Shown here in pieces: positions 8,473-62,675 of a DNA stretch of 64,000 nt. Where the stretch lies: the NCBI RefSeq assembly GCF_014250515.1, contig NZ_CP060202.1:245001-309000 (forward strand), written 5' to 3'. Every line of letters begins with the position of its first letter. The first letter of the stretch is position 1. The position numbers and the translations under genes are program-made. The stretch is from Hymenobacter sediminicola. GTDB taxonomy: Bacteria > Bacteroidota > Bacteroidia > Cytophagales > Hymenobacteraceae. Under the pieces are notes generated by a model. It was not told the origin of the DNA. It made no database searches and worked only from the letters and a program-made list of their open reading frames with translations.

Positions 8473-9336
8473 TTACTGAGCAGAGCGTTTCCGGGAATTC
8501 TGGAGGCGCAGCATGGCCGCAGCGTAACGTTGGCCCATGAGCCGGGCCGACGCGGCATCGAAGTGCGTTTGGTCGCCGATGTGGTGGGTGCCCACGGCTG
8601 ACACGTAAGCGTAGTGCGGAACCGTGCGGCCCAGCTTAGCTACCGTGGCGTTGATGCGGCGGGCCGCTGCGTTGGATCGTGGACGGTTGGCGCTGTCCAG
8701 CTTTAGAATCTGAAATTTGGGGAGTTGCCCCGCCACAAACGGCACGTTCGGCGCCTGCAAATCCTGGCGGAAACGGGTAATGAGAGCCGTTAGATTTTGC
8801 CCGTAGGCCGCGCTGCTGGCCGGGTTGCTATCCGATTCGCCTTGGTGCCAGATAACGCCGGCCAGCGTACCGCTCTGTATGGCGGTGCGGGCGCGCCGGA
8901 TGGCATCATCGTAGGGGTTTGTTTTGGTGGCCGGGTAGAACGCGCCCGGCTGCCAGTAGCTGATGGCCGAGCCGCCCACCGCGCACGGAATTAGCCCAAT
9001 AACCACGCTTGTATCCTGCGCTGCCAGCATCCGGCCAAACGTCAGGCCCGGCCCTACGCCTGCCACGCTCTTGTCGAAATGCATCGGGTCTTTAGCTACT
9101 TCCCAGTGGCCAGCCGGGTTCAGGCGCAGCACGTGGCCATTTGGCACTGTGTCCTGCGCCTCCACTGTACCCCGTCCCGCCATATTCGACTGGCCCACCA
9201 GCAGATACAGCCGGAACTTCTCCTTGCGTACTGGCGGCGCCACCTGCTCCCGCGTTTTCGGCCGCAAACTTTGCGCCCCCGCTGAACCAGTCAGCAGCGT
9301 TGTAAGGCTTAGAAGCAGGAGGGTGAGGCTGTTCAT
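8473..9336 (-). CDS. secreted acetyl(xylan) esterase, CE6 / SASA-domain SGNH hydrolase
   Basis: The product has 287 residues with an N-terminal signal peptide (about 1-21, ending SAGAQ). It carries the SASA/DUF303 fold signatures: GQSNMAGRG with nucleophile Ser50, the conserved WHQGESD block at 163-169, and the C-terminal DxxH pair Asp255/His258 in GDQTHFD. The spacing fits carbohydrate esterase family 6 acetyl xylan esterases better than sialate O-acetylesterases, and the neighbouring GH10 xylanase supports removal of O-acetyl groups from xylan. It acts outside the cytoplasm. The gene starts just after a composite inverted repeat (9344-9441) and is followed 31 bp later by the xylanase gene. 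Fold and catalytic residues are firm; the xylan substrate is inferred from context. Confidence 0.88.
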   Translation of the reverse strand: MNSLTLLLLSLTTLLTGSAGAQSLRPKTREQVAPPVRKEKFRLYLLVGQSNMAGRGTVEAQDTVPNGHVLRLNPAGHWEVAKDPMHFDKSVAGVGPGLTFGRMLAAQDTSVVIGLIPCAVGGSAISYWQPGAFYPATKTNPYDDAIRRARTAIQSGTLAGVIWHQGESDSNPASSAAYGQNLTALITRFRQDLQAPNVPFVAGQLPKFQILKLDSANRPRSNAAARRINATVAKLGRTVPHYAYVSAVGTHHIGDQTHFDAASARLMGQRYAAAMLRLQNSRKRSAQ

Positions 9337-9343
9337 ATGAAAC

Positions 9344-9441
9344 TGTAGAGACGCGACACTTCGCGTCTCGGCGTTGCTGATGTTGTTTACTCTGGTGAGC
9401 CCAGCGGCACGGACGCCGAGACGCGGGTACGCTTCTCTACA
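9344..9441. repeat. composite inverted repeat (nested hairpins)
   Basis: An outer imperfect inverted repeat pairs 9344-9374 with 9413-9441 (both ends read tgtagaga inward). Inside the left arm is a perfect smaller hairpin, gagacgcga / tcgcgtctc, with a 4-nt loop. It occupies almost the whole gap between the agarase-like gene and the esterase gene, starting 6 bp after the former's stop codon. It looks like a mobile or REP-like intergenic repeat and may also affect mRNA processing. Confidence 0.65.
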
Positions 9442-9446
9442 TTGCG

Positions 9447-10916
9447 CTACCGTACCGTGGGTTGGCGTTTGTCGAAGTAGTCGGCCAGTGGGTACATCTG
9501 CTGGTTTAGCTCGCGCATCTTGTCGAGCAGGGGCGTGTAGGGCTCCAGATAGTTGTCCACGATGCCCTTGTTGGCGTTGGTGTTGGACGGTTCCGCGCCT
9601 ACGATGGTCGGGTCGTTATCCTGGTATTTGAACCAGTGCCAGCCCACGCAATTCTTCGATTCCAGCAAGCCCAGCGTGAAATTCTGGTAGAATAGGCCCC
9701 GGTCGGCCTGGGTGCGTACCACCCAGCCCGCGCCGGCCGTGTTGGCCAGGCCCGGCGCGTCTTCGCCCTTCACGTACCACTCCGTCACGATAAATGGCTT
9801 GCCCGCTGCCTGCTCCCACTCGCGCACCCAGCGGGGCTCGGGCGTCCAGTTGTTGTAGTAGTTGATGCTCACCGCATCAAGGTATTTGCCGGCCACACGC
9901 ATCAGCTCGGGGTAGTAACGCTGAGCCCCGTGGAAGCGGCAGCCGAGGTACATGTGGTTGGGGTCATACTTCTTCATGGCCTTGGCCACGATGCTGAAGT
10001 AGCGGTCTGCCACGTAGGTCAGGAAATCCTGGCGGTGCTGGTCGGTGATGGTTTCGAGGGTAATGCCTCGTTCATCGGCCCACTTTTTGGCCGCCTGGTA
10101 GCCGGGCTCTGTTGGGGGAAGTTTCAGGTAGCCGTCCAGGTTTTTGCGCAGCAGGGGCATCTCATTGTCGGAGAAATAGCCGAACAGGTTCTTGTCGTTG
10201 CGGTACTGGGCCAGTTGCTTGGCGTGCCCCTCGGCAAAGGTTTCAAAGCCGGGGTCGAAGGCGAAAATCACGTCGTTGGGGTAGCCTTTGTGGCCGGGCT
10301 GCACGTAGGTGCCGCCGCGCTTATCCCCGTACTTGCTCATGAAATCCAGGTTGATGGTGTAGGCCAGCGGCTTGTCGGCCCGGGCATTTTCTGCCTGAAT
10401 ATCCTTGGTGGCCGACCATGCCCCGGTGCCGTTGAAACCGTTTTCGAGCAGAAACTCGCGGGTACCGGCCATCCAGCCGGCTTGGTCACCGAACTTCTGT
10501 TTCAGCGCCTGTTGGGTGCGCTCCGAGCGGCCAGCCTGCACGTCGTTGGGGGCGTTGTGCAGGTAGTAGTAGCCCTCGGGGTCCACGGCCCACCAACGGC
10601 CGTTCAGCTTCTCCACATGAAAGAAGCCCGTAGCCTTGGTGCGCTTGTCCAGCCGCCCGCCGTACTTGCTCAGCTTCACCGTACCCGGCCGGAAGCCGGG
10701 CAGCTGGGCAATGGTGCGCGTGGGGTAGCTTTTGTACGCCGAAAAGCCGGCCTTGCCGTCAAGCTGGGAGTTGTTGATGGTCTTTTTCGCATCCACGCGC
10801 AACGTGTACTCAGTGGTGTCGAGCTGCTGGGCGTGGGTGGTTTGGGCGAAGGCGAGAAGTACAGCGGCTAGTACAGAACTCGTCAATCGAACGTCATGCA
10901 GAGCAGAGCGAAGCAT
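9447..10916 (-). CDS. agarase-like clan GH-A glycoside hydrolase (GH50-like), secreted
   Basis: From the ATG at 10916 the product has 489 residues with a signal peptide (about 1-30, ending TTHAQ). The N-terminal beta-rich part contains GFFHVEKLNGRWWAVDPEGYY (97-117), a motif typical of proteins annotated as agarases. A TIM-barrel part follows with clan GH-A catalytic residues in the expected places: acid/base Glu252 in FSDNEMPLL and nucleophile Glu379 in IVTEWYVKG. I cannot name the substrate. GH50-type beta-agarase is the nearest label, but the PUL context (xylanase, acetyl esterase, glucuronidase) argues for a different linkage. The start codon and first nine residues lie inside one arm of a large inverted repeat. 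A reading to 11006 would cross both arms and is unlikely; a TTG about 30 bp downstream of the ATG is another possible start. Confidence 0.68.
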   Translation of the reverse strand: MLRSALHDVRLTSSVLAAVLLAFAQTTHAQQLDTTEYTLRVDAKKTINNSQLDGKAGFSAYKSYPTRTIAQLPGFRPGTVKLSKYGGRLDKRTKATGFFHVEKLNGRWWAVDPEGYYYLHNAPNDVQAGRSERTQQALKQKFGDQAGWMAGTREFLLENGFNGTGAWSATKDIQAENARADKPLAYTINLDFMSKYGDKRGGTYVQPGHKGYPNDVIFAFDPGFETFAEGHAKQLAQYRNDKNLFGYFSDNEMPLLRKNLDGYLKLPPTEPGYQAAKKWADERGITLETITDQHRQDFLTYVADRYFSIVAKAMKKYDPNHMYLGCRFHGAQRYYPELMRVAGKYLDAVSINYYNNWTPEPRWVREWEQAAGKPFIVTEWYVKGEDAPGLANTAGAGWVVRTQADRGLFYQNFTLGLLESKNCVGWHWFKYQDNDPTIVGAEPSNTNANKGIVDNYLEPYTPLLDKMRELNQQMYPLADYFDKRQPTVR

Positions 10917-10989
10917 CTCGTATGCTGACGTTGAGTTAGTAGTGCAATGACCGCACGCGAGATGCTTCGCTCTGCTCTGCATGACGTTC
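10889..10989. repeat. large inverted repeat overlapping the 5' end of the agarase-like gene
   Basis: Perfect 32-bp arms (10889-10920 and 10958-10989) enclose a 37-bp centre whose edges also pair imperfectly. The left arm contains catgcagagcagagcgaag. The element fills the space between the GH2 stop (11009) and the next gene, and extends into that gene's first codons. A shorter relative lies at 4010-4040. This is the form expected of a REP- or MITE-like intergenic repeat. Transcribed, it would form a very stable hairpin between two PUL cistrons. Confidence 0.8.
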
Positions 10990-11008
10990 TTTCTTATAGG
11001 TAGCATGA

Positions 11009-12877
11009 TTATTTTCCGTCGTACTTCTGGGCCATTTGGCGGTAGAAATCCTGCAGCACATAGAAGGCTTTTTTCTTGACGCCGGTGCTGGAAATCAGGC
11101 CTTTGCGGTTGAAGCCGTTCTGGTACACCGGGTGCTGGCGGCGGGTGGCGCGGAAGTCGGCCAGAATCCAGGGAGTCATGCCGCGCAGGTTCTTGATGGT
11201 ACTCAGCATCTTGAGTTGGTTCACGTACAGCGCCTCCTGGTATTCCTCGCTCCAGCGTGTGTCGGCGTCGCCGTGGTAGCCGGCCAGGGCGTCGCCGCCA
11301 AACTCACTAATGGTGACGGGCTTGTTGTACTTGATGTCGAAGGTGTATTTGGTGATTTCGCTGGGCTTGCCGCCCCAGTACCAGCCGGCGTACTCGTTGA
11401 TGCTGGTCAAATCCAAGAACTCGCCCAGCGGGTCGTCCACGTGAATTACGTTGTCGGGGGTACGGTGCAGTTCCAGGGCGGCCGAAATCAGGCGGGTATC
11501 GTCCAGGGAGCGGGCTTTCTGGGCCAGGCTGCTCATGAATTTCAGCCGCGGCTCACCCAGCGGCGTTTCGTTACCCACGCTCCACACCACCACGCTGGCG
11601 CGGTTCTTCCCCATAGCAATCAGGTCGGAGAGCTGCTGCTCGGCGTTCTGGTAGGTGGCGGGGTTTTCCCAGGCAATGGTCCAGTACACCGGCACTTCGG
11701 CCCACACCAGCAAGCCCATTTCGTCGGCTAGCTTGAGCATGGTTTCGTTGTGCGGGTAGTGGGCCAGGCGCACGTAGTTGCAGCCCAGCTCCTTGGCCCA
11801 GGTAAGCAGCATGCGCAAGTCCCCCTCGCCCCGGGCCCGGCCCGGAATCAGTGGGTTTTCATCGTGCATGCTGATGCCGCGCATGTAAATGCTCTTGCCG
11901 TTGAGCAGGATATCCGCGCCCTTGGTTTGAATCGTGCGGAAGCCAATCCGGTCCTGCACCGCGTCCGAGCCGCTCGTGAGGCGCACGGCGTACAGCTTCG
12001 GGCTCAGCGGCGACCAGCGGGCCAGCTTTTTGGCCGGCAGGCTGAACGTGGCGCGGCCTTCGCCATCGGTTTTCACGGTGTGCTTAATACCCGCTTCACT
12101 GATGTTCAATGTCACCGATTGACCGGCCTTGCCCGCGCCGGCCAGCTGCACGTAGCCCGCCAGCGTGTTTGGGTCGTTTTTGGCCAGCTGCACTTTGTAG
12201 TCGCTGATGTAGGTGTCGGGGGTTTCGGCAATGAACACGTCGCGCGTGATGCCGCCGTAGTTCCACCAGTCGGTGTTGATGGTGGGTACTTCGTTGGGGC
12301 GGCGCGTGTTGTCGGCCTTCACCACCACGAAGTTCTCGCCGGTGCCGCTGAGCTGGTCGGTGATGTCATACTGAATCGGAGTGAAGCCGCCCTTGTGCAT
12401 GCCCAGCTTCTTGCCGTTCAGGTACATGTGCGACTCGTAATTAATAGCCCCGAAGTACAGGAAATACCGTTTGCCGGGCTTGGGTGCCAGCGTGAAGCTT
12501 TTCTTGTACCAGATGGTACCCTCGTAGTACAGCAGCTCCGGCCGCTGCGAGTTCCAGTCGCCCGGAATCTGCATGGCCTGCGACTTGTCGAAGTCGTACT
12601 CAATCAGCTCGGCCTCTTGCTTGCTGCTCGGCTTGGCGTTGTCGTAGTAGCCGCCCTTGCCGCTCTTCGACTGGTCGAAAGCCTCCCGGCGGTAGTCGTA
12701 GAAGCCGTTTTCGTAGGGGTCGATGATGTAGTTCCAGCTGCCGTTCAAGCTTAGCACCTGCCGGCCCGGCATGTTCTGAATCAGGATGGACTGGGCCTGC
12801 AGCGGCCGGCTGCTGAACGCGCCCACGAGCAGCAACGCAGCCGCCATTAGCGTTTTCATCAGGGTGGGTGAAGTCAT
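11009..12877 (-). CDS. GH2 beta-glucuronidase-like enzyme, secreted
   Basis: The product has 622 residues from the ATG at 12877, with a signal peptide ending RPLQAQ (about residue 29). Domains run sugar-binding jelly roll, immunoglobulin-like and TIM barrel. The catalytic pair is visible: acid/base Glu437 in SVGNETP and nucleophile Glu525 in TISEFGG. TDWWNYGGITRDV (202-214) and NEYAGWYWG resemble beta-glucuronidases. FNRKGL supplies Asn590-x-Lys592, matching the N-x-K motif that binds the glucuronate carboxylate in characterised glucuronidases. That makes beta-glucuronidase more likely than beta-galactosidase and fits the uronate genes at the end of the same locus. It is third after SusC and SusD. 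ATGs at 12859 and 12967 are alternative starts; the latter adds a tail unlike a signal. Confidence 0.85.
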   Translation of the reverse strand: MTSPTLMKTLMAAALLLVGAFSSRPLQAQSILIQNMPGRQVLSLNGSWNYIIDPYENGFYDYRREAFDQSKSGKGGYYDNAKPSSKQEAELIEYDFDKSQAMQIPGDWNSQRPELLYYEGTIWYKKSFTLAPKPGKRYFLYFGAINYESHMYLNGKKLGMHKGGFTPIQYDITDQLSGTGENFVVVKADNTRRPNEVPTINTDWWNYGGITRDVFIAETPDTYISDYKVQLAKNDPNTLAGYVQLAGAGKAGQSVTLNISEAGIKHTVKTDGEGRATFSLPAKKLARWSPLSPKLYAVRLTSGSDAVQDRIGFRTIQTKGADILLNGKSIYMRGISMHDENPLIPGRARGEGDLRMLLTWAKELGCNYVRLAHYPHNETMLKLADEMGLLVWAEVPVYWTIAWENPATYQNAEQQLSDLIAMGKNRASVVVWSVGNETPLGEPRLKFMSSLAQKARSLDDTRLISAALELHRTPDNVIHVDDPLGEFLDLTSINEYAGWYWGGKPSEITKYTFDIKYNKPVTISEFGGDALAGYHGDADTRWSEEYQEALYVNQLKMLSTIKNLRGMTPWILADFRATRRQHPVYQNGFNRKGLISSTGVKKKAFYVLQDFYRQMAQKYDGK

Positions 12878-12986
12878 AATAGAGTGGAAAGGGTGCAGTA
12901 GAAGAGGACCGAAAACGTGCGCCAACGCAGCCCGACCCTTGCAGTGGCCTGGCTGCGTTTTGCTCACACTTTTTCACTCACTCTCA

Positions 12987-14501
12987 CTAGTTGTAGCCCG
13001 GGTTCTGGGTCAGAATAGGATTGGTCTGGATTTCCTGAATCGGAACCGGGAACAGCAGGTCGTTCTGGTCGATGCGGGTAGCAACATTGGCGCGTGTGAA
13101 GAAGGCGTTCATCACCGGAATGGCGCGGTCGGTACGCACCAGATCAAACCAGCGGTGGCCTTCGAAGCTTAGCTCCAAGCGGCGCTCCAGCTCCAGACGG
13201 GTGCGCAGTGTGCCTTGCGTAGTGCCGGCCGGCAGGTCGACGGTGGCGTTGGCAGTGCCCACAGGCAGGTTGCGCGAGCGGCGGATTACCTGGTTTACGG
13301 CCGTCAGGGCGGCAGCGGTAGGGCCGCCCTGCTCATTTACGGCTTCGGCGTACATCAGCAGTACATCGGCGTGGCGCAGCACAATCCAGTCGTTGTCGGC
13401 GTCGGTGGCACTGGTGGGCGTATCGATGTACTTCTTGGTGTAGTATTGGCTGGTAGCTACCGGATTGATAGGCAGTGTGTAGGACGTAGCCGCGCGCACA
13501 TCGGTCGTGCCGCTGGCCGTGAAGGCCGCTACCAAATCCGTATCCACGGTGTTGAACTGCTGCCCGGTAAACGATGCCCCAATCAGGGCCGTGGTTTGCG
13601 CAGCCGTGTAGGCCGGCATAAACCAGGTGGTGAAGGCACTGCCCACGCCCAGCGCCCCTTTGGTATAGCGCACGGCGAAGATGATTTCGTTATTCACCTC
13701 GTTGGTGGTAGCGAAAACGTTGGCGTAGACGGGCAACAGCGTGTAGGTGGAGCCCGTGGCCAGCGGCTGTAGCTTGTCGGCGGCCTGCTGGTATTTCTTC
13801 TGAGTGAGCAGCACCTTGCCCAGCAGCGCCGTAGCGGCGCCTTTGGTGGCGCGGCCCAGGTTTACACCGGTCTGGGTAACGGGCAGGTTCTGTTCGGCAA
13901 ATGCCAGATCCTGCTCAATCTGAGCGTATACTTCCGTTACCGGGCGGCGGCCAAACTGATAGGCATCGGGGATGGTTTCGATTTCCTGAGTCACCAGGGG
14001 TACCTCGCCCCAGATGCGCACCGCGTTGAAATAGGCCAGCGCCCGGATAAAGCGCACCTCGGCGTAGTAGCGGTTGCGGGTGGCATCGGTGAGCTTGATG
14101 GCGCCGGCCCGGCCCAGCACAATGTTGCAGCGGGCAATGGCGCGGTACGTCGACAGCCAATAGCTCTGTACGTTGTTGTTGTCGCTGATCAGGGTGAAGT
14201 CGTTAAACTCGTTGAGTCGTTCGCCCGAGGTAACGGTGAAGCTGTTGTCCGACGGAATTTCGCCGAACACAAAAATGCCGCGGCTGCCACCTGCGCGGCC
14301 ATACAAATCCTGCAGCGACGAGTATGCCGCCGTCACGCCGTTGAAAATGCTCAGCGAATCGGTGTAGCCTTCGGTGGTAGGCAGGCGCGTGGGGTCGTTC
14401 AGTTCGATGAAGTCCTTGTCGCAGGAAGAAGTGCCCAGCGCCAGGCCCAGCAGTGCCGCAGCACCGGCCCCTTTGAAAATATGTTTGAAGTCGATAGTCA
14501 T
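12987..14501 (-). CDS. SusD/RagB-family outer-membrane glycan-binding lipoprotein
   Basis: The product has 504 residues with a lipoprotein signal ending LGTSSC (Cys27), followed by acidic and lysine residues (DKD) like the surface-export signals of Bacteroidota lipoproteins. The N-terminal SusD-like part (IELNDPTRLPTTEGYTDS, then helical TPR-type segments such as AEVRFIRALAYFNAVRIWGEVPL) and the C-terminal ending (LELSFEGHRWFDLVRTDRA, then FPVPIQEIQTNPILTQNPGYN) are characteristic. SusD proteins sit on the cell surface over the SusC channel and capture glycan pieces. It lies 101 bp after susC and 109 bp before the GH2 gene, all on the minus strand. Membership is firm; the ligand is inferred to be the xylan-type substrate of the neighbouring enzymes. 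Confidence 0.95.
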   Translation of the reverse strand: MTIDFKHIFKGAGAAALLGLALGTSSCDKDFIELNDPTRLPTTEGYTDSLSIFNGVTAAYSSLQDLYGRAGGSRGIFVFGEIPSDNSFTVTSGERLNEFNDFTLISDNNNVQSYWLSTYRAIARCNIVLGRAGAIKLTDATRNRYYAEVRFIRALAYFNAVRIWGEVPLVTQEIETIPDAYQFGRRPVTEVYAQIEQDLAFAEQNLPVTQTGVNLGRATKGAATALLGKVLLTQKKYQQAADKLQPLATGSTYTLLPVYANVFATTNEVNNEIIFAVRYTKGALGVGSAFTTWFMPAYTAAQTTALIGASFTGQQFNTVDTDLVAAFTASGTTDVRAATSYTLPINPVATSQYYTKKYIDTPTSATDADNDWIVLRHADVLLMYAEAVNEQGGPTAAALTAVNQVIRRSRNLPVGTANATVDLPAGTTQGTLRTRLELERRLELSFEGHRWFDLVRTDRAIPVMNAFFTRANVATRIDQNDLLFPVPIQEIQTNPILTQNPGYN

Positions 14502-62614: not shown

Positions 62615-62675
62615 CAAAAAGAGGGTGAGGTTCCGACAGCGCTGTGCGTGTAGTCGGAACCTCACCCTCTTTTTG
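62615..62675. terminator. bidirectional hairpin between convergent genes
   Basis: Perfect 22-bp arms (62615-62636 and 62654-62675, beginning caaaaagagggtgagg) around a 17-nt loop. It lies 83 bp after the hydrolase stop and 19 bp from the 3' end of the convergent patatin-like gene, so it probably ends both. Confidence 0.88.

Follow-up and report, generated by a model that had tools for sequence, protein, structure and literature searches.

Does a repeat at the start of a gene supply the start codon of that gene, or is it read through as part of the protein? The question is raised by a GH50-type (agarase-like) enzyme gene of Hymenobacter sediminicola (9447..11006, minus strand, 519 aa counted from the upstream start), located in the 64-kb stretch of DNA analysed here, which we call the window. 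Its product matches the PDB entries 5t3b (E 1.8e-70) and 4bq2, a beta-agarase (E 6e-34), both of which we take to be members of the GH50 family. Upstream lies a GH2 gene (11009..12967, minus strand; Pfam PF02836 and PF02837), the stop of which abuts the GH50 start. The inverted repeat with perfect 32-bp arms that a preliminary description of this DNA had placed at 10889-10989 is real and was found again: its arms of 45 nt each (10889-10933 and 10945-10989) are 89% complementary, and the outer 32 bp (10889-10920 and 10958-10989) pair perfectly. It is the strongest inverted repeat of the window under the scan used, and the folding energy computed for the corresponding RNA is -79.5 kcal/mol (z = -8.7). 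No Rfam family was matched in window positions 9000-13000, and no promoter or terminator match was found at the element site. The window has two further strong inverted repeats, 2739-2807 and 62615-62675 (30 and 23 bp arms).

On the minus strand, the element (10889..10989) consists of the arms 10958-10989 and 10889-10920 and a centre at 10921-10957, and the hydrophobic core of the signal peptide, SSVLAAVLLAFA, is encoded just 3' of it (10845..10880, minus strand). The enzyme frame is open across the whole element up to an ATG at 11006-11004. Read in this frame the element encodes (K)NVMQSRAKHLACGHCTTNSTSAYEMLRSALHDV; HLACGHCTTNSTSAYEMLR is one of the peptides that would come from its left arm or centre. 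As previously described, a second in-frame ATG, at 10916-10914, and the next eight codons lie inside the right arm, followed by RLTSSVLAAVLLAFA, and the claim that the n-region of the signal peptide is in part repeat-encoded is supported.

The element belongs to a dispersed family, termed F1, as the preliminary description had supposed. Its arm is not unique in the source genome (4.51 Mb), which holds 49 copies at ≤2 mismatches, against none for a reversed control pattern; a relaxed F1 pattern has matches in 118 of the 120 genus genomes, again with zero hits for the reversed control. Full relatives of about 100 bp occur at other places in the genome of the window. The F1 arm is a small imperfect palindrome beginning with CGTC, the inner positions of which covary (ATGC/GCAT, ATTC/GAAT), and the F1 unit is thus a REP doublet: as in REPINs, two inverted palindromic REP units make up an element of about 100 bp with many copies per genome. 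The GTAG- and CGTC-tagged REPs, including intragenic ones, have been described by Di Nocera et al. 2013 (PMC3733652), the main text of which does not mention Hymenobacter. Like CGTC-tagged REPs, F1 starts with CGTC followed by an AT that is complementary to an AT at the other end, and occurs in inverted dimers; CGTC REPs are without a dedicated transposase (PMC3733652), and no transposase gene flanked by F1 was found here. Unlike them, F1 lacks a stem of 8-9 bp with a loop of 4-5 nt, its stem in the copies inspected consisting of 4 bp, a mismatched interior and about 2 bp more. The genome also contains, at G000:C1 positions 1327543 and 3835195, a related REP doublet whose arms are TGTCATCCTGAGC..CGAAGGACCTT. 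Another F1 element of this genome (G000:C1:774542-774635, locus L046) lies in frame within a B12-binding/radical SAM protein of 801 aa, between its two domains, and the same arrangement is found in another species (L089).

Among the 120 genus genomes searched, 28 close loci share the GH2 neighbour (that of the window and 27 at ≥79% identity). An inverted-repeat element occupies the site between GH2 stop and signal-peptide core in 24 of them. By pattern, these elements were assigned to five families, F1 (9 loci), F2 (4), F3 (9), F4 (1) and F5 (1), whose arms are without common sequence. Four later orthologues from other genomes, held out as a check (L280, L282 = L242/G410, L283 and L284), all carry an element in an open frame, which brings total occupancy to 28/32. 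Element-free at the site are L060 and L068, and by the score used also L071 and L078; the element-free species have shorter n-regions and the same start position. According to the preliminary description, its proposal would fall if repeat-free orthologues encoded the same first ten residues; their n-regions are instead short and unrelated. The orthologues from outside Hymenobacter (L288, L289) carry no element, and their start overlaps with the GH2 end.

No stop interrupts the enzyme frame within the element in any of the 28 element-bearing loci (24 orthologues and four held-out), across species and families; as in the Rickettsia palindromic elements (RPE), the element lies within the ORF and in frame. 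At the other junctions of the operon (SusC-SusD, SusD-GH2, GH50-esterase and xylanase-GH3), 5 of 33 elements are open (Fisher p about 2e-12, a value to be read with caution as species of one genus are not independent); in the scored set, the corresponding numbers are 23/23 and 5/33. Stop-free frames amount to 23% in 154 background elements, and 15 independent events at this rate would give a probability of about 3e-10. The start position is likewise conserved. In 26/28 element-bearing loci the distance of the first ATG to the GH2 stop is between -1 and +6 nt, often as an ATGA overlap, and in the window it corresponds to the ATG at 11004..11006 (minus strand, 2 nt past the GH2 stop), the most likely start codon of the GH50-like gene. 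This proximity suggests translational coupling of the two genes. Most likely the whole element is translated and lengthens the n-region of the signal peptide by 30-40 residues; the n-region would then comprise 35-51 residues, 42 in the gene of the window, in front of a normal hydrophobic core.

We therefore favour, with a probability of roughly 0.85, an in-frame insertion of REP doublets with the start kept, the whole element translated, and unrelated families succeeding one another. A REP doublet of about 100 bp, i.e. two opposed REP palindromes, would insert in frame past the start codon and ahead of the hydrophobic core in the signal peptide of the secreted GH50-like enzyme, while the original start beside the GH2 stop is retained, probably in translational coupling with GH2. 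The extra 30-40 residues should be cut off by signal peptidase, so that any stop-free in-frame element would be tolerated at the site. New elements landing in or beside old ones would replace them, by which unrelated families come to succeed each other. Against this model, the hairpin of -79 kcal/mol just 3' of the start codon might hinder translation, internal initiation at the ATG of 10916 is a possibility in this genome, and the upstream start is absent in two genomes, G037 and G053.

Family turnover at the site is evident. On a tree of the 28 loci, calculated from GH2 plus the mature enzyme without its N terminus, at least 15 changes of the family label are required, a number similar to that for shuffled labels, and even close sisters differ (F2 in L074, F5 in L076). 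In L280, the F1 doublet at the site has an F3 REP nested in its loop, with the frame kept, and at G000:3318448 an F4 element is nested inside F1; replacement via nesting is plausible from these two cases. They would also fit a pure hot spot, in which REPs prefer to insert into or beside REP palindromes and the site is hit again and again with no benefit to the host, as would the variation among species in the elements of the remaining operon junctions. Occupancy scored at an inverted-repeat score ≥15, however, reaches 23 elements among 28 loci here against 33/89 at the other junctions of the same operon (p 3e-5), and a hot spot alone does not account for this roughly twofold difference. We regard the chances of this explanation, which is compatible with translation of the element, as evenly balanced.

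The same excess, reached despite the added demand for an open frame, would be expected if the hairpin itself were selected, for GH2 mRNA stability or GH2-GH50 coupling, with mobile elements as its interchangeable sources; an insertion hot spot explains it equally well, and four orthologues do without a hairpin. Between G085 and G062, five arm positions have changed identically in both arms, in place, besides two changes in one arm only and two unlike changes, which as a single species pair is a weak comparison. Among the copies found in the G085 genome, no other carries these changes together. The paired changes are compatible with selection as well as with correction of the palindrome, since template switching can also produce them. 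Selection of the hairpin, though reconcilable with translation of the element, appears rather doubtful to us, and we give only tentatively the further idea that selection favours a hairpin at this coding position whatever its sequence, unrelated selfish palindromes being repeatedly domesticated into an RNA hairpin and an n-region. The preliminary description had also suggested that the stem, as RNA, might tune expression.

The preliminary description had placed the start at the ATG of the right arm (10914..10916, minus strand), as a new start recruited from a repeat that displaced the old one. Displacement is probably wrong here, as 26 of the 28 element-bearing loci have retained an ATG beside the GH2 stop and all 28 an open frame through the element. 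Recruitment is probably wrong in this genome too, the arm ATG not being conserved: 6/9 F1 orthologues have it, but G012 has GTG at the equivalent codon, and G085 and G052 have no start codon there (by locus: GTG in L056, CTG in L067, none in L063), and species with F2, F4 or F5 generally possess no start codon between element and hydrophobic core. It is plausible in G037 and G053, where no upstream start exists and the first in-frame ATG lies in the loop of an F3 element. That translation begins in the right arm, the upstream part of the element being an untranslated leader, would yield a signal peptide of normal length (MLRSALHDVRLTSSVLAAVLLAFAQTTHA) and agree with the majority of the F1 orthologues, with the loop ATG of G037 and G053 and with the non-coding status assigned to most N-terminal REPs in P. 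putida, C. koseri and S. maltophilia (Di Nocera 2013, PMC3733652), but it is improbable given that a leader needs no open frame while all 28 are open, that L056, L063, L067 and the other families lack the arm ATG or have it altered, and that an ATG stands beside the GH2 stop nearly throughout. In the genome of the window, the arm ATG is a possible secondary initiation site next to the start favoured here.

The remaining families are also dispersed. F2 occurs in 85/120 and F3 in 107/120 genus genomes, F4 is found in other loci of the genus, and F5 is repeated within G091 itself. The window contains a second REP doublet, of the GTAG-tagged family F2, at 9345..9440 (no strand assigned), between the GH50 gene and a SASA esterase gene. 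A methylmalonyl-CoA-mutase-like fusion protein of G091 (L201) contains an in-frame F5 element, which separates its B12-binding domain from its MeaB-type GTPase domain. With their doublets of about 100 bp, the GTAG at the beginning of F2 and the location of F4 beside Y1_Tnp (RAYT-like) genes, the families resemble REPINs and GTAG-tagged REPs with their RAYTs. F4 adjoins Y1_Tnp genes in 8 of 31 Y1_Tnp loci (L150, L152, L153, L154, L156, L157, L158 and L161), with palindromes of the type CCCAGGG..CCCTGGG, which in most of these loci stand on either side of the gene, as would be expected for a RAYT with its REP. F4 is thus the one family for which a Y1_Tnp gene flanked by the same REP was found; F1, F2, F3 and F5 flank none in the 31 loci and differ in this from the REPIN/RAYT system. 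In L139, F1 arms are located only about 0.5 kb upstream of the Y1_Tnp gene, not flanking it. G055 has the most F1 arms (512), yet no match to PF01797. A RAYT as mobiliser of F1 is not supported by these observations.

Palindromic repeats in frame within protein-coding genes are already known from the Rickettsia RPE, which the present elements resemble in their predicted translation, and from Di Nocera et al. 2013: the CGTC-tagged REPs include RPE-4 and RPE-6, and R. conorii expresses proteins that have RPE-1 at their N terminus (PMC3733652). Different REPs at about the same recB site in two Xanthomonas species (PMC3733652) are a small precedent for the turnover observed here. Literature searches returned no paper on a shared signal-peptide site, and nothing relevant by repeat sequence. 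Unlike in RPE, at least five unrelated families occupy a single site in different species, and this site falls within the n-region of a signal peptide; new is the repeated occupation of one coding site by unrelated families. With many natural replacements at one site and the frame always kept, the locus provides a comparative test of the translation of palindromic repeats at gene starts. It presents signal-peptide n-regions as a tolerant entry point for mobile DNA into proteins, and gene starts in such operons as easily mis-annotated.
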